Shown here: one piece after another, positions 5,506-15,017 of the stretch
How positions within the stretch are numbered: position 1 is the first letter of the stretch
Layout: every line of letters starts with the position of its first letter
Source of the DNA: a virus
Direction: 5' to 3' (one strand)
DNA length: 26,414 nt
IMG/VR virus record: IMGVR_UViG_3300042401_000332
Span: 1 to 26,414 of that record
The notes under the pieces: model-generated
Told to the model about the DNA's origin: nothing
Database searches by the model: none
The model's input: the letters and a program-made list of their open reading frames with translations, nothing else
Program-made: the position numbers and the translations under genes

Positions 5506-5721
5506 ATGGCAAAAGTAATATTAGAGTTTGATACTATTGAAGATGAAGACGCAATAAAAGACTGCATAAACGGTTTTAAATGGCGAATGTTAGTTAACGA
5601 ATTAGATAACTATTATAGAAATATGTATAAATATTCAGAAGATGAAGAAGAGGTTGAAATAGCTGAAAAAGTACGTAATAAAATACATGAGTTATTAAAT
5701 GAAAGTGAATTGTTTTTGTAA
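5506..5721 (+). CDS. Conserved Bacteroidota phage protein (MAKVILEFD type)
   Basis: This 71-residue acidic protein begins MAKVILEFDTIEDEDAIKD, continues with FKWRMLVNELDNYYRNMYKY and ends in an EIAEKVRNKIHELLNE helix. Proteins with this start and layout are common in phages and prophages of Bacteroidota and other phyla, usually near replication genes, with no known function. It follows a 14-bp direct repeat and precedes a gene-free stretch with a promoter and a structured RNA. Confidence 0.8.
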   Translation: MAKVILEFDTIEDEDAIKDCINGFKWRMLVNELDNYYRNMYKYSEDEEEVEIAEKVRNKIHELLNESELFL

Positions 5722-5791
5722 CATTTAACTAATTATTATACGTAAAAGTATTATTTATATAACATTTTTAAAAAAAAATAATTAAAAAGTA

Positions 5792-5819
5792 TTGCATTTA
5801 AAATAAATTACTATATTTG
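5792..5819 (+). promoter_or_regulatory. Bacteroidota promoter of the structured RNA
   Basis: TATATTTG (5812-5819) matches the -7 consensus, with TTG (5792-5794) 17 nt upstream as a plausible -33 element. Transcription would start around 5824-5827, exactly where the first hairpin of the structured RNA begins. The rest of the gene-free stretch 5722-5791 is AT-rich, and nothing else is seen in it. Confidence 0.75.
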
Positions 5820-5824
5820 CATAC

Positions 5825-5916
5825 GGTTACGGTCTCACAACATAGTAACTAAAGGAAATTTAAACCCTACAATGATTTAAGACGTGAGACCCTTAATGAT
5901 TTGTAGGGTTTTTTTT
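5825..5916 (+). ncRNA. Kissing-loop structured RNA with intrinsic terminator
   Basis: Hairpin 1 pairs GGTTAC (5825-5830) with GTAACT (5845-5850, one G-U) around a 14-nt loop starting GGTCTCAC (5831-5838). Hairpin 2 pairs 5862-5872 (AAACCCTACAA) with 5901-5911 (TTGTAGGGTTT), 11 bp, then after an internal loop TTAAG (5877-5881) with CTTAA (5892-5896), and has the apical loop ACGTGAGACC. GTGAGACC (5884-5891) is the exact complement of the hairpin 1 loop, so all three helices can form together as a kissing complex. A T8 run (5909-5916) follows, so hairpin 2 is also an intrinsic terminator. The promoter at 5812 would start the RNA at its first stem. It is either a free small RNA of about 92 nt or a leader controlling read-through into the replication genes. 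It does not match tRNA or a riboswitch that I recognise. Confidence 0.85.
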
Positions 5917-5937
5917 ATGTTTAAAATAAATTAAATT

Positions 5938-6135
5938 ATGGAGTACAGATTAAAAACAGAAGACAATGTATATTTAAACATTGTAGAAAATGAAAACTAT
6001 TTATCAAAAATTGAATCAATACAGATTTCAATTGGAATTAAAAAAGATTTTGATGATGCTCATATCTTTTTATCAAAAACAGAATTACACAAGTTAATTG
6101 GTGCTTTGTTACATATTCAAGCTAAAATGAAATAA
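5938..6135 (+). CDS. Hypothetical protein, first gene after the structured RNA
   Basis: This 65-residue protein has a beta-rich first half (YRLKTEDNVYLNIVENE) and a C-terminal helix LSKTELHKLIGALLHIQAKM (residues 45-64). Small proteins ending this way occur near replication genes in Flavobacteriaceae phages; their function is unknown. It starts 22 nt after the T run that ends the structured RNA, so its expression depends on read-through of that terminator. Two bases separate it from the replication initiator gene. Confidence 0.72.
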   Translation: MEYRLKTEDNVYLNIVENENYLSKIESIQISIGIKKDFDDAHIFLSKTELHKLIGALLHIQAKMK

Positions 6136-6137
6136 TT

Positions 6138-6791
6138 ATGAGTGGTTGGATAAAATTACATCGCTCAATAACTGAACATTGGTTATATACAGAAAAACGT
6201 AAATTTTCAAAGTTTGAAGCGTGGAATGATATACTATTAACAGTTAATTATTTACCTTGTAAAACTATTATTAAAGGAAAGGTAATTGAAGTTAAAAGAG
6301 GCGAAAGTGCATTATCATTAGAAAGTTGGGGTAAACGTTGGAATTGGGATAAATCATCAGTAAAACGATTTTTTGAGTTATTAAAAAGTGATGATATGAT
6401 TCAATTAAAAAACGAAACAGTTACGACACGGTTAATTATCTGTAATTATGATAGTTACCAATCAAAAGAAAACGAAGTTGTTACGCAGACGAAACGCAGA
6501 CGAAACGCAGACGAAACGCAGACGAAACCAATAGAAGAAGAAGAAGAAAGTAAAGAAGAAAAAGAAGAAATATATAGAGCGTTTAAACATTTAAAATTAA
6601 CCATAGATGAATTTAAAAAACTAAATGAGGTTTATTTAAAAGAAGATATAGAAACGGTTTTAAATAATATAGAAAACTATAAAACAAATAATAAATATTC
6701 TTCTTTATATTTGACATCTTTAAATTGGTTAAAGAAAGATTATAAGACAAAAGAAGAATCAATTAAAAATCATTATAAAATATCAGTATGA
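6138..6791 (+). CDS. Replication initiator, lambda O/DnaD-like, with iterons in the gene
   Basis: The 217-residue protein starts MSGWIKLHRSI and has a winged-helix N-terminal domain (residues 1-105, with the recognition-helix-like SLESWGKRWNWDKSSVKRFFELL) like phage replication proteins of the lambda O, DnaD and RepO type. A low-complexity linker (116-146) is encoded by four 11-bp repeats and a purine-rich tract. A small C-terminal helical domain (150-210) probably contacts the helicase. The gene overlaps the primase-helicase start by ATGA, as initiator and helicase genes often do. The layout matches lambda O: DNA-binding domain, origin inside the gene, partner-binding domain. It should bind the repeats and load the 6788 product. 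The family assignment rests on domain layout, not on a catalytic motif. Confidence 0.75.
   Translation: MSGWIKLHRSITEHWLYTEKRKFSKFEAWNDILLTVNYLPCKTIIKGKVIEVKRGESALSLESWGKRWNWDKSSVKRFFELLKSDDMIQLKNETVTTRLIICNYDSYQSKENEVVTQTKRRRNADETQTKPIEEEEESKEEKEEIYRAFKHLKLTIDEFKKLNEVYLKEDIETVLNNIENYKTNNKYSSLYLTSLNWLKKDYKTKEESIKNHYKISV
6483..6526 (+). repeat. Four 11-bp iteron-like repeats, candidate replication origin
   Basis: ACGCAGACGAA is repeated four times without a mismatch at 6483, 6494, 6505 and 6516. Each copy has 6 G or C of 11 bases, far above the surrounding DNA. The 11-bp period is one helical turn and not a multiple of three, so each copy is read in a different frame; selection therefore seems to act on DNA, not protein. 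An AT-rich purine tract (6530-6580) follows and could be the melting region. Confidence 0.8.
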
Positions 6792-8557
6792 GTAACTTTA
6801 TAGAATGGAATACTTTAGACTTAAAAAAATTAAGTGGTAAAGAATCAATAAGATGTCCTAAATGCGATGAGGTTAGAACAGATAAGAGAGATAAATCATT
6901 AAAAATAGACCACAACTCTGGAATTGGAAAATGTTTTTATTGTGAAGCATTAACATTTAGAGAAAGTAATTTAGATAAGATTCAAACTAAATATACTTAC
7001 CCAACCCAAGAATGGAAAAATTATACTCAATTATCTGATAAATTAGTTAAATGGTGCTGGAGTGAAAGGATGATTAGTCAAACAACTTTAAATCATTTTG
7101 GTATATCAGAAGAAGAAATATATTTTCCACAAGTTCAGAAGAAACAAAACGCAATTACATTTAATTATTTTGAGGGCGAAATAGTAGTTAACAAAAAATA
7201 CCGTTCATCAGATAAGAAATTCACACAACATACTGGAGGTAAACCAATATTTTATAATATAAATTCAATTATTGGTCAAAAAGAAGTTTTTATTGTTGAG
7301 GGAGAGTTTGATGTTTTAGCAATGTATGAAGCTGGTTATAAAAATGTAATTTCACTTCCTAATGGTGCAAATGATAATGATGATTATTGGATTAACTCAG
7401 AAAAGTATTTAAAAGAAATTGAGCATTTTATTATAGCAACTGATAATGACGATAAAGGAATTGATACAAGAAATAAGATTTCACACCGTTTAGGTCGTTT
7501 TAGATGCACTTTTATTGAATGGATAGGTAAAGATGCCAACGATGATTTAAAAACGTCGCAAATCAAAAATTCTGTAAACAATAAAAAACGCTTTCCAATA
7601 GGCGGAACTTTCAATACATTTGATTTATTAGATGAAACTTTAAGACTTTATAACGAGGGAATGCCAAAAACAATATTTCCAAAGAATGAAATGTTTAGAG
7701 GTTTTGAAAAAGACTTTAGTATAATGATGGGACAATTAACAGTTGTAACAGGTATTCCATCACATGGTAAAAGTAGTTTTGTAGATTGGTACGCTTTAAA
7801 TATTGCAAATGATTACGATTATAAATTATCAATATTCAGTCCCGAGCATAATCCTTTAGGCTTATATAATTCAAAATATGCTTCTTTATCAATTGGCAAA
7901 CCATTCTTTGGAAAAAATAAGATGTCAGAAAATGAACTATTTGAATATACTGAATGGAGCAAAGAAAAATTATATTTTACAACATCAGAAGAAAGCATTA
8001 CACCTGATTGGGATTGGTTACTTGAAAAGTTCAAAGAGCAGATGTTTACTTTTGGGATTAATATGTTTATAATTGATGCTTGGAATAAAGTGTTAATGCC
8101 TAAAGGATTTCAAGGAAAGGATGGAATAGACCAAATATTAACTAGATTAACGTCGTTTTGTATTCAATATAATGTTCATATATTTTTAGTTGCTCATCCT
8201 ACAAAGATGAAGAAAAATGAAAAGAGTGGAAAATACGATATTCCCGACTTGTATAGTGTAAGTGGTTCATCAGACTTTAGAAATCAAACTCATAACGGTT
8301 TATGTGTTTATAGAGAATTTGGAAACGATATTGAAGATGGTTACACAATGGTAATTAATTTAAAAACTAAATACGATTTTCAAGGTAATATCACAAGCAT
8401 GACAAAGTTTAATTGGAATAACGACAATAGAAGATTTTATGTTGATGGTTGTTTAAATTCTAGTCAATCATTGATTAAAAACAAATCAAAACAAATAGAA
8501 GAATTTGAAGTATTTGATTCAATAAAACCAAATACAGAATTTGACGCACCATTTTAA
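6788..8557 (+). CDS. T7 gp4-like bifunctional primase-helicase
   Basis: The 589-residue protein makes RNA primers and unwinds DNA at the phage fork. A zinc-binding domain has CPKC (C23, C26) and CFYC (C49, C52). The TOPRIM primase domain has EGEFD (171-175) and the ATDNDDKG acidic cluster (217-224). The RecA-like hexameric helicase domain has Walker A GIPSHGKS (322-329), Walker B FIID (D430) and the motif around VAHPTK (468-473). Domain order and length match T7 gp4. The tail after 560 is acidic and ends FDAPF, perhaps a protein-contact tip. It overlaps the initiator gene by ATGA and is followed closely by small recombination-module genes. Confidence 0.94.
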   Translation: MSNFIEWNTLDLKKLSGKESIRCPKCDEVRTDKRDKSLKIDHNSGIGKCFYCEALTFRESNLDKIQTKYTYPTQEWKNYTQLSDKLVKWCWSERMISQTTLNHFGISEEEIYFPQVQKKQNAITFNYFEGEIVVNKKYRSSDKKFTQHTGGKPIFYNINSIIGQKEVFIVEGEFDVLAMYEAGYKNVISLPNGANDNDDYWINSEKYLKEIEHFIIATDNDDKGIDTRNKISHRLGRFRCTFIEWIGKDANDDLKTSQIKNSVNNKKRFPIGGTFNTFDLLDETLRLYNEGMPKTIFPKNEMFRGFEKDFSIMMGQLTVVTGIPSHGKSSFVDWYALNIANDYDYKLSIFSPEHNPLGLYNSKYASLSIGKPFFGKNKMSENELFEYTEWSKEKLYFTTSEESITPDWDWLLEKFKEQMFTFGINMFIIDAWNKVLMPKGFQGKDGIDQILTRLTSFCIQYNVHIFLVAHPTKMKKNEKSGKYDIPDLYSVSGSSDFRNQTHNGLCVYREFGNDIEDGYTMVINLKTKYDFQGNITSMTKFNWNNDNRRFYVDGCLNSSQSLIKNKSKQIEEFEVFDSIKPNTEFDAPF

Positions 8558-8567
8558 AAATAAAGAT

Positions 8568-8741
8568 ATGTTAACAGAAAAATATTTAATTGAAAACGGA
8601 TTTTACAAAGAAGTAATAGGTAATAATATTTACTTCATAAAAGGTTGGATAAGATTAGAAAAAAGTTTTTGTGGCTTTATAGTAGCTCAACCTTACAAAA
8701 TAATTAGTACTATTGACGAATTAAAACAAATAGAGAAATGA
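8568..8741 (+). CDS. Hypothetical small protein
   Basis: The 57-residue product starts MLTEKYLIENGFYKEV and has an alternating beta pattern through the middle (NNIYFIKGWIRLEKSFCGFIVAQ), ending in a short helix. A longer frame from 8541 would overlap the helicase end and begin THHFKNKD, but the ATG at 8568 follows an A-rich stretch typical of starts here and is preferred. No family is recognised. It overlaps the nuclease-like gene by ATGA. Confidence 0.7.
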   Translation: MLTEKYLIENGFYKEVIGNNIYFIKGWIRLEKSFCGFIVAQPYKIISTIDELKQIEK

Positions 8742-9352: not shown

Positions 9353-9876
9353 GATGTAAACAATGCAAACAAAAGTTTGAACCTAAATGGTTTAATCAAA
9401 AATACTGCATGATTAACGACGAATGTATTAAACACTTTGCAGAACAAACAAAGTTGAAAGCCTGGAACGAAAGAAAGACTAAGTTAAAGAAAGAAGTTTT
9501 AACAATTCAAGACTATCTTAAACTAGCTCAACAAGTATTTAATAAATATATTAGATACCGTGATAAAGGAAATGTTTGTATAAGTTGTCAGAAACCAATT
9601 AAAGAAAACAACTGCGATGCTGGGCACTTCTATTCAGCTGGTGGACATTATAACGTTAGATTTGACGAAAATAATGTTCATGCTCAATGCTCAAGACCTT
9701 GCAATAAAGATAAGTCAGGGGATTTATTGAACTATCGAGAAAATTTAGTTAAAAAAATAGGTTACGAAGCATTTGAAAAATTAACAGTAGATTCACAATT
9801 AACAAGAAAGTTTATAGTAGACGAATTAAAAGAATTAATAGAGCATTATAAACAAAAGATAAAAGAACATGAATGA
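9349..9876 (+). CDS. ninG: NinG/Rap-like recombination endonuclease
   Basis: The 175-residue protein matches the lambda NinG (Rap) family, which promotes recombination by cutting branched DNA such as Holliday junctions and D-loops. An N-terminal zinc ribbon-like part has CKQC (C3, C6), C20 and C26. The core has CISC (C77, C80), CDAGHFYSAGGH (89-100), VRFDENNVHAQC (103-114) and NKDKSG (119-124), the expected HNH-like arrangement. The length is somewhat below that of lambda NinG. It overlaps the preceding gene by ATGA and the next small gene by 8 nt. Confidence 0.92.
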   Translation: MRCKQCKQKFEPKWFNQKYCMINDECIKHFAEQTKLKAWNERKTKLKKEVLTIQDYLKLAQQVFNKYIRYRDKGNVCISCQKPIKENNCDAGHFYSAGGHYNVRFDENNVHAQCSRPCNKDKSGDLLNYRENLVKKIGYEAFEKLTVDSQLTRKFIVDELKELIEHYKQKIKEHE

Positions 9877-12608: not shown

Positions 12609-13791
12609 AGGATATACACCCCATGAGTATCAAAAGAAGATACATGATAGTATTAGATTTGATAATCATAAATACTATGTATTAAACATTGGTAGGCAGT
12701 TCGGTAAAACTATGTTAGGAATTAACTCAATGTTAGATTGGGCTATTAATAATAGAGGTTGCCATATTGCATGGGTCACGCCTATCTACAAACAAGGAAA
12801 GAAAGTATTTGATGAATTTGAAAAGGCTACAACTAGAAGCGGTCTTTTTGAGTATAATAAAAGTGAGTTAACTATTAAAGGCTTTGGAAGTACTATAAGT
12901 TTCTTTTCAGGAGAGCGACCAGACAATATAAGGGGTAATACATTTGACTATCTTATAATGGATGAGATTGCATTTAGTAGACCTGAACTATGGGATGAAG
13001 TATTAAGTGCAACTGTACTTGTTAAGGGTAAAAAAGTTTTATTTATTTCAACTCCTAAAGGAAAAAACCATTTTTATAAATATTCTTTACAACATAACTA
13101 CGATGATAGGTGGAAATATTTTCACTTTACAAGTTATGATAATCCAATGATTGACTCAAAGGATTTAGATGAGCGTAGAAGAAGTTTACCCGACCATATA
13201 TTTAGACAAGAATACCTTGCTGAATTTATAGACAATAATAGCGGCCTATTTAGAAACGTTAAAGCTAATGTAATAGAATACAAAGCTGAACAAGAGGAGT
13301 TATATGGGGGCCTAGATATTGGTAGAGCAGATGATTATACTGTTTTAACTATTATAAACAGACATAATGAAATGGTTTATTGTAATAGGTGGAGGCATGA
13401 CGAATGGAACAATATAATTAATAAGGTTGCAGCAGTAATAAATGAATATCAATGTCAAACATATGTAGAGGTTAATAACCAAGGAGACGTATTCTATGAG
13501 ATGCTACAAGGCAAATGTTATGACTTAATAGATTCGTTTGTTACAACGTCCAAAACAAAGCCTATAATGATTGAGGATTTAGCTTTAGCGTTTGAGCAAA
13601 ACAATATTAAGATACTAAATAAACAGTATTTAATAGATGAGTTAGAAGCATTCACTTATATCTATAACGAGCGAACTAGAGGGGTACAATATTCAGCACC
13701 TCAAGGAATGCATGATGATAGCGTAATGAGTTTAGCATTAGCATATCAGTCAAGAAAAGATTTCAAAGGAGGTCTTCCAAATATTCGATAA
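12595..13791 (+). CDS. terL: Terminase large subunit (packaging ATPase-nuclease)
   Basis: The 398-residue protein drives DNA into the prohead and cuts the concatemer. Walker A is GRQFGKT (33-39), Walker B is YLIMDE (119-124, catalytic E124), and STP (152-154) is the coupling motif. The RNase H-like nuclease domain shows GGLDIG (D241), VEVNNQG (292 region) and MHDDSV (D374, D375). The start must be a non-ATG codon: a TAG at 12580 closes the frame and the first in-frame ATG (residue 40) lies after Walker A, so TTG at 12595 is chosen. This overlap with terS suggests coupled translation. Confidence 0.95.
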   Translation: MATIKGYTPHEYQKKIHDSIRFDNHKYYVLNIGRQFGKTMLGINSMLDWAINNRGCHIAWVTPIYKQGKKVFDEFEKATTRSGLFEYNKSELTIKGFGSTISFFSGERPDNIRGNTFDYLIMDEIAFSRPELWDEVLSATVLVKGKKVLFISTPKGKNHFYKYSLQHNYDDRWKYFHFTSYDNPMIDSKDLDERRRSLPDHIFRQEYLAEFIDNNSGLFRNVKANVIEYKAEQEELYGGLDIGRADDYTVLTIINRHNEMVYCNRWRHDEWNNIINKVAAVINEYQCQTYVEVNNQGDVFYEMLQGKCYDLIDSFVTTSKTKPIMIEDLALAFEQNNIKILNKQYLIDELEAFTYIYNERTRGVQYSAPQGMHDDSVMSLALAYQSRKDFKGGLPNIR

Positions 13792-14565: not shown

Positions 14566-15017
14566 AAGGACACTTACAAATAATAGATGCAATTCGTACA
14601 CAGTTAGAAGCTGATGAATTTGTTAATACGGTAACAGAGGGAAGTTTATTCGATATTGATTTAGCTAAAGTAACGATGTTCCCTTTGTCGCATATTATAG
14701 TTAACTCATTCCAATTTAGCGAGAATGTAATTAGATGTAACCTTTCTATACTTGCAATGGATGTTGTCGACTTATCTAAGTCAGAAGTAACGGATGTGTT
14801 CAAAGGAAATGATAATAAGCAATATGTAATTAATACGGCTCTATTAACTTTAAATAGATTATACCAACAATTAAGACATGGTAGTTTAGTTGATAGTGGA
14901 TATATTGTAGACGGTACGCCAACAGTTGAACCATTTGAGGAAAGATTTGAGAATTATATCGCAGGTTGTACTATGACATTAGACGTTTCATTTTTTCCCG
15001 ACATGACTGTATGTTAA
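14562..15017 (+). CDS. Probable tail completion or neck protein
   Basis: The 151-residue protein has an N-terminal helix (QIIDAIRTQLEADEFVNTV), strands around SHIIVNSFQFSENVIRCNLSILAMDVVD (residues 43-70), a helix after NKQYVINTALLTLNRL and a strand-rich C-terminus (EERFENYIAGCTMTLDVSFF). This alpha-beta pattern with a final FENYIAG(C/W) strand pair resembles small head-tail joining and tail-terminator proteins. The gene lies between the frameshift pair and an HK97 gp10-like gene, the usual setting for such proteins. The family assignment is by layout only. Confidence 0.62.
   Translation: MKGHLQIIDAIRTQLEADEFVNTVTEGSLFDIDLAKVTMFPLSHIIVNSFQFSENVIRCNLSILAMDVVDLSKSEVTDVFKGNDNKQYVINTALLTLNRLYQQLRHGSLVDSGYIVDGTPTVEPFEERFENYIAGCTMTLDVSFFPDMTVC

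Follow-up and report, generated by a model that had tools for sequence, protein, structure and literature searches.

A kissing-loop RNA with its own promoter box and intrinsic terminator ahead of early replication genes in Bacteroidota phages

Introduction

What might a stretch of about 92 nt, in which a promoter box, two hairpins with complementary loops, and a terminator follow one another directly, do ahead of phage replication genes? The question is raised by positions 5824 to 5916 of a 26,414-nt virus record, called the window throughout, which carries replication, terminase, and tail genes of phage type. The element is placed where the decision to begin replication is made, in phages of a host branch, the Bacteroidota, in which gene control is almost unknown. 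By sequence comparison, the observation of a kissing-loop element with a promoter and a terminator is confirmed here, and the interpretation given to it in the initial annotation is partly supported.

Results

Architecture of the element

All parts of the element lie on the plus strand. Its -7 promoter element, TATATTTG (5812 to 5819), perfectly matches the Bacteroidota sigma-A motif TAnnTTTG, and a possible weak -33 element, TTG (5792 to 5794), is located 17 nt 5' of it, at a spacing that is not sharply kept in relatives. As the -7 element of Flavobacterium spans -12 to -5 (PMC6847099, PMC9723704), transcription would start at about 5824 to 5825, at the foot of the first stem. The consensus promoter previously claimed at this stem therefore stands as a Bacteroidota -7 box, which is retained in nearly all relatives found from their loops alone, but its -33 element is weak and it is absent from the list given by an E. 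coli-type promoter scan of the window. From the promoter position and the terminator, an RNA of about 92 nt is predicted to extend from 5824/5825 to the T-run (5824 to 5916).

The extreme 5' end of this predicted RNA is occupied by hairpin 1 (5826 to 5849), in which the arms GTTAC (5826 to 5830) and GTAAC (5845 to 5849) enclose a 14-nt loop, GGTCTCACAACATA (5831 to 5844), containing the kissing element K1, GGTCTCAC (5831 to 5838). A 12-nt linker leads to the terminator hairpin (5862 to 5911), whose arms pair 5862 to 5872 with 5901 to 5911 and 5877 to 5881 with 5892 to 5896 on either side of a symmetric internal loop (5873 to 5876 and 5897 to 5900). The 10-nt apical loop consists of AC followed by the kissing element K2, GTGAGACC (5884 to 5891). 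With a predicted folding energy of -16.5 kcal/mol (z = -4.5) and a T8 run directly at its end (5909 to 5916), the second hairpin is, as had been annotated, an intrinsic terminator by sequence and fold. Within its internal loop, tandem G-A pairs are possible (TGA...TGA; TGAA...GGAT in relatives); this is the best-conserved part outside the apical loops and may be a structural motif or a protein site.

Upstream of the element, the ORF list contains a 71-aa frame (5506 to 5721). The first downstream ORF on that list, of 65 aa (5938 to 6135; weak match to phrog_7002), has its ATG at 5938, 21 nt past the T-run, and is followed on the same strand by genes for a DnaD-like helicase loader or replisome organizer (6138 to 6791; phrog_2514, E 2.7e-25) and, in the same operon, a DNA primase/helicase (6788 to 8557; phrog_239, E 3.9e-80). 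An ORF of five codons (ATG TTT AAA ATA AAT TAA, 5917 to 5934) begins where the T-run ends and precedes the 65-aa ORF.

Complementarity of the loops in relatives

The exact loop pair at a spacing of 30 to 60 nt is present in at least 119 viral stretches and, with promoter and stem 1 as well, in at least 56 distinct sequences, nearly all of them with an overall spacing of 59 to 66 nt; these and the following counts of relatives are lower bounds, and the relatives are not phylogenetically independent. As the loops of the 56 sequences are invariant by selection, relatives were then sought without using the loops. Promoter and stem 1 alone gave at least 170 distinct matches in two viral scans. Among the matches listed, 108 of 170 have a terminator-like hairpin downstream, and in 103 of these 108, loop 1 is perfectly complementary to hairpin 2 over at least 7 nt, compared with about 13 when partners are shuffled; the five exceptions comprise two parsing errors and three non-members. 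The other loop-blind selection used only the downstream protein: of 21 distinct loci that encode a relative of the window's DnaD-like protein, 18 have a kissing element (at least 7 nt of complementarity) within 900 nt upstream of it, with counts of 0, 0, and 0 in the complement, reverse, and downstream controls. For a more distant replication protein family, the element was found in 16 of 70 cases (controls 1, 0, and 0). Among all the loci fetched, of which there were 468 in the first run, the architecture occurs 236 times with reverse-complementary loops, against once with reverse and twice with complement loops, and reverse-complementary loops outnumber direct repeats by 281 to 6.

Covariation leads to the same picture. 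About 162 distinct type I RNAs, the form found in the window, contain 26 different loop 8-mers, and for every one of them the terminator loop holds the perfect reverse complement. Among these 8-mers, GGTCTCAC is over-represented, having itself served among the search patterns. When 27 members were aligned without gaps, 98.5% of cells were paired and two-sided changes were seen in 19 of 28 pairs, a result that none of 500 shuffles reaches. Changes on both sides affect all five pairs of hairpin 1, 9 of the 15 pairs of the terminator hairpin, and 5 of the 8 pairs of the kissing helix, where 100% of cells are paired in members that were obtained with a descriptor requiring complementarity. When the geometry was fixed and mismatches were allowed, 109 of 112 kissing duplexes were perfect, and two of the three imperfect ones contained G-U wobbles. 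RNAalifold, applied to relatives carrying only GGTCTCAC, took the kissing pairing as a nested helix; the RNAalifold model (R1) was dropped for a model with a hand-specified structure (R2). The complementary loops first noted at 5831 to 5838 and 5884 to 5891 are thus present, and a proposed search of relatives for compensatory changes in them gave such changes, with complementarity kept in both loop-blind selections. By these comparisons, the element is a two-hairpin RNA with complementary loops that change in a compensatory manner, as is characteristic of a kissing-loop RNA.

Some close relatives differ in the loops in a concerted fashion. L357 and L406 share identical 78-nt flanks and differ by 2+2 compensated loop changes, the near-identical RNAs of L344 and L257 differ by 4+4 paired loop changes, and those of hemulen6-1 and snusmum6-1, phages isolated on one host strain, show 2+2 loop differences. 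Across L357, L406, L427, and L457, the flanks are identical or nearly so, with two compensated changes per loop and no intermediates seen, and inverted-repeat templated correction is a possible mechanism for such a change. Fast diversification of the loops as a general rule was rejected, as K overall evolves no faster than the stems; the few concerted swaps remain.

Forms and distribution

The design recurs in hundreds of Bacteroidota phages, in which the sequences vary while the loops stay matched. Named carriers are the Flavobacterium phages snusmum6-1, hemulen6-1, elemo, and 11b; a Blast search with the RNA against named phages found snusmum6-1 only, because the sequence is too divergent and a structural descriptor is needed. 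Type I has a 14-nt hairpin 1 loop, a 10-nt terminator loop, and 8-mers of roughly the form S-N-T-Y-Y-S-A-C. The two loops are exchanged in type II (hemulen6-1 at 14768, snusmum6-1 at 14691, and elemo), and type III, with an 8-nt loop and seven pairs, precedes NUMOD4-HNH genes (hemulen6-1 at 13733, snusmum6-1 at 13656). Flavobacterium phage 11b carries a sequence-unrelated form in the same place (at 33638; loops CGGGCAGG/CCTGCCCG), and others are found in L481, L490, L499, L504, and L568. Olleya phage Harreka_1 and Cellulophaga phage phi19:3 probably have further unrelated forms, with complementary stretches that were read by eye. Across classes, stem lengths, loop lengths (7 to 17 nt), and spacing differ widely.

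Several phages carry two or three elements with distinct loops, each before its own gene. The three leaders of snusmum6-1 (L472), at 9715, 13656, and 14691, are of different forms and loop codes and precede a helicase, an HNH endonuclease, and the replication region. NUMOD4-HNH genes (L469:13733 and L472:13656; also in L285, L311, L384, and L458) have their own short-loop kissing terminator, with loops GTCGTCG/CGACGAC or GTTACGG/CCGTAAC and a T-run a few nucleotides from the ATG. The locus L481 is 94% identical to the window over 2.7 kb (6067 to 8741), its DnaD-like protein being 99% identical, yet its leader is of a different form (loops CGTGAGA/TCTCACG) and the start of its 65-aa ORF is also of another class. 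It therefore follows that the module was replaced as a unit, in an apparent module exchange.

The annotation of the element as belonging to no known RNA family agrees with searches of Rfam 15, in which the window matched nothing at gathering score, seven loci matched nothing at E <= 5, and six loci from other classes matched nothing at E <= 1. Literature searches of partial coverage found no description of the element. Among Bacteroidia genomes, model R2 matches 0 of 395, which is weak evidence given its strict filters, and the promoter and stem pattern gives a single match, attributable to chance; a bacterial RNA captured by phages was rejected as an origin on these two results. Two genome contigs that do match the element are short or phage-like, and a scan of genome contigs with the exact loops returned mostly chance matches. 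On these searches, the element family is phage-borne and nearly absent from host genomes.

Coupling to the downstream start codon

In the 212 members of type I, mechanical ORF calls usually place the upstream frame in the same direction as the element, with its end about 20 nt short of hairpin 1, and the distance from the T-run to the next ATG has quartiles of 12, 17, and 19 nt. An ATG follows within 20 nt for 78% of kissing terminators (median 18), as opposed to 6% of generic terminators in the same loci (median 95). With the T-run this near the start codon, there is no room for a separate promoter, and downstream mRNA must therefore normally cross the element. The first downstream gene varies among phages, and the neighbors include O-like or primosomal replication initiation proteins, Prim-Pol, HNH endonucleases, and small ORFs. 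The initial placement of the element ahead of replication genes is borne out in the window by the DnaD-like/primase operon, but the same architecture also precedes HNH endonuclease and other early genes, and the link to an initiator is therefore not exclusive.

The commonest upstream neighbor of type I is a small protein with the DnaA C-terminal helix-turn-helix (PF08299; a cluster of 64, for example L075:3911-4315), which suggests an origin-linked position. At L477:1-160, the same place as in L226, a kissing-loop RNA without a TAnnTTTG box comes directly after the 3' part of an apparent tRNA gene, with which it is possibly co-transcribed; ARAGORN makes no call there because the contig is cut. 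In elemo phages (L470, about 5600 to 6018), the kissing-loop RNA and the replication protein have an annotated tRNA-Met gene just ahead of them.

Folding and alternative pairing

When the RNA is folded up to the end of K2, the K1:K2 pairing, treated in a nested model, is the best structure (-13.2 kcal/mol); with the 3' arm fully made, the terminator hairpin becomes the better structure (-16.5 kcal/mol), and it leaves room for the kissing contact to be kept. As the pairing is best before the terminator closes and the terminator is best after, a kinetic role in terminator formation is plausible. No conserved antiterminator or other alternative helix appears in the covariation ranking (APC-MI), and a classical two-state switch is therefore not indicated: the element has the terminator between promoter and start codon that is expected of an attenuator, but not the mutually exclusive antiterminator. 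Elsewhere in the contig, the phage's own K occurs 14 times, against 21.2 expected from foreign K, and this lack of enrichment gives no sign of another target in the phage; a trans target within the same phage was rejected on this basis.

Discussion

Of the small RNA and the attenuator that were originally proposed as alternatives, the tight coupling to the start codon favors the attenuator or leader, although not one with an antiterminator helix. We regard the chances as evenly balanced that the element is a cis-acting leader or attenuator of the early replication operon, in which kissing tunes the folding of the terminator, and it would then probably control the timing with which the replication genes are switched on. 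RNA polymerase would start at TATATTTG, and hairpin 1 would be made at once. The apical loop of the terminator, on emerging, could pair with the hairpin 1 loop already in place, at a time when the terminator still lacks its 3' arm, and this contact would set how well the terminator hairpin then forms and hence how much polymerase, from the element's own or an upstream promoter, is supplied to the replication genes. The terminator hairpin also lies within the translation initiation region of the next gene and so may set the level of translation; in F. johnsoniae, structure just before a start codon lowers initiation (PMC6847099). We infer both that the RNA is made and that its pairing influences termination or translation; as to the direction of this influence, we lean toward kissing stabilizing the closed, off state. 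Terminated 92-nt copies may also give feedback in trans. Counted against the leader are the missing antiterminator helix, its own strong promoter, as would be expected of a stand-alone small RNA, and the variation among phages in the first gene downstream.

Terminated RNAs that are self-complementary in two loops, together with concerted switches of loop pairs, make a role in trans a serious rival, albeit one that we judge unlikely. The terminated 92-nt RNA would rise with the number of genome copies, and its loops would pair with nascent leaders of the same phage kind, in a feedback akin to plasmid copy control in which joint changes in both loops would create new specificities. Having its own promoter and terminator fits such an RNA, as does a K1 that is matched by K2 but by no other site in the contig, and as do the near-identical RNAs that differ by paired loop changes alone (L357/L406, L344/L257, and hemulen6-1/snusmum6-1). 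However, the rate at which K evolves argues against general diversifying selection, intramolecular pairing should outcompete pairing in trans, GGTCTCAC is common to many different phages, and an RNA acting in trans would not need to be tightly coupled to a start codon. It is decidedly unlikely, in our view, that the kissing complex serves as a compact RNA at the start of the early transcript, recognized by its shape by a protein or RNA polymerase or protecting the RNA. The architecture is retained where sequence is not, through many unrelated classes and swapped loops, the 5' hairpin lies at +1, the symmetric internal loop is conserved, and there are several copies per genome, but stems, loops, and spacing that vary so widely would be unusual for a shape-specific protein site.

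Ordinary insulation, by which a promoter would give a dead-end transcript and kissing would merely aid terminator efficiency or RNA stability without regulation, would account for a strong terminator that lacks an alternative helix. We consider it very unlikely, as it would be odd to keep a promoter whose transcript ends 92 nt later, and equally odd to place a terminator less than 20 nt from the start codon of an essential early gene when the distance for generic ones is about 95 nt. Inverted repeats near a promoter could also be operator half-sites of a phage repressor in the DNA, and K1 and K2 would covary in that case too. This can hardly be credited, since the position of K is exactly that of the loops in two hairpins that covary separately, direct repeats are nearly absent (6 against 281), the phage's own K is not repeated elsewhere, and G-U wobbles account for two of the three imperfect pairs.

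A broader principle, previously undescribed, can be put forward tentatively, although we think it rather doubtful as a whole: a kissing-controlled terminator would gate early genes widely in Bacteroidota phages, with hairpin 1 addressing the terminator loop by an 8-nt code, and the codes would be orthogonal within a genome and exchangeable between phages, allowing a phage to sense its own copies or to keep its leaders private. The idea that pairing sets terminator efficiency is directly testable, as compensated loop pairs exist on identical backgrounds and carriers can be cultured (hemulen6-1, snusmum6-1, 11b, and elemo). The element brings in an abundant class of RNA whose loops covary with unusual clarity, and Bacteroidota genetics would gain from it a collection of orthogonal kissing pairs that is ready for use.

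Comparison with known systems

The put RNA of HK022, which modifies host RNA polymerase in cis so that terminators further downstream are suppressed, likewise has two hairpins near the start of an early phage transcript and several copies per genome. It has a conserved sequence and is not itself a terminator, whereas one hairpin of the present element is. In the IncI/IncB RepZ system, a leader pseudoknot activates translation, and a counter-transcribed Inc RNA blocks this. The parallel with RepZ drawn in the initial annotation extends to loop-loop pairing ahead of a replication gene and to nothing beyond this resemblance. The second hairpin of the element is instead a terminator, and in the window the minus strand shows no TAnnTTTG across it (5831 to 5945). 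RepZ control further involves translation of a leader peptide, which opens the pseudoknot; the five-codon ORF of the window begins past the terminator.

In the CI immunity of satellite phage P4 and the c4 immunity of P1, a replication operon has in its leader a small RNA that works through complementary loops and through premature termination, and P4 needs Rho-type termination and RNA processing. The element differs in that its terminator is intrinsic and in that its own K is not enriched at other sites of the contig, whereas an exposed loop of the P4 type has complementary sites in other parts of the replication-operon leader. An immunity RNA for lysogeny was the first idea considered and was weakened, as LMO phages carrying the element have been described as virulent. 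The hemulen and snusmum phages are described in this way (PMC7077304), and lysogenic immunity is therefore not the role of the element there.

In phage T4, RNA structure directly before HNH and GIY endonuclease genes limits their expression (PMC2988022), and type III elements resemble these leaders in lying directly before NUMOD4-HNH genes, which the window's own element does not. The T4 leader hairpins sequester the Shine-Dalgarno site rather than forming a terminator that has a kissing partner (PMC2988022). With riboswitch- and T-box-type attenuators, the element shares a promoter, a structured 5' leader, and an intrinsic terminator just before the start codon, and loop-loop contacts are known from some riboswitches. 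Unlike these attenuators, it has no conserved aptamer sequence, antiterminator helix, or Rfam match, and its 5' hairpin is instead predicted to pair with the apical loop of the terminator itself.
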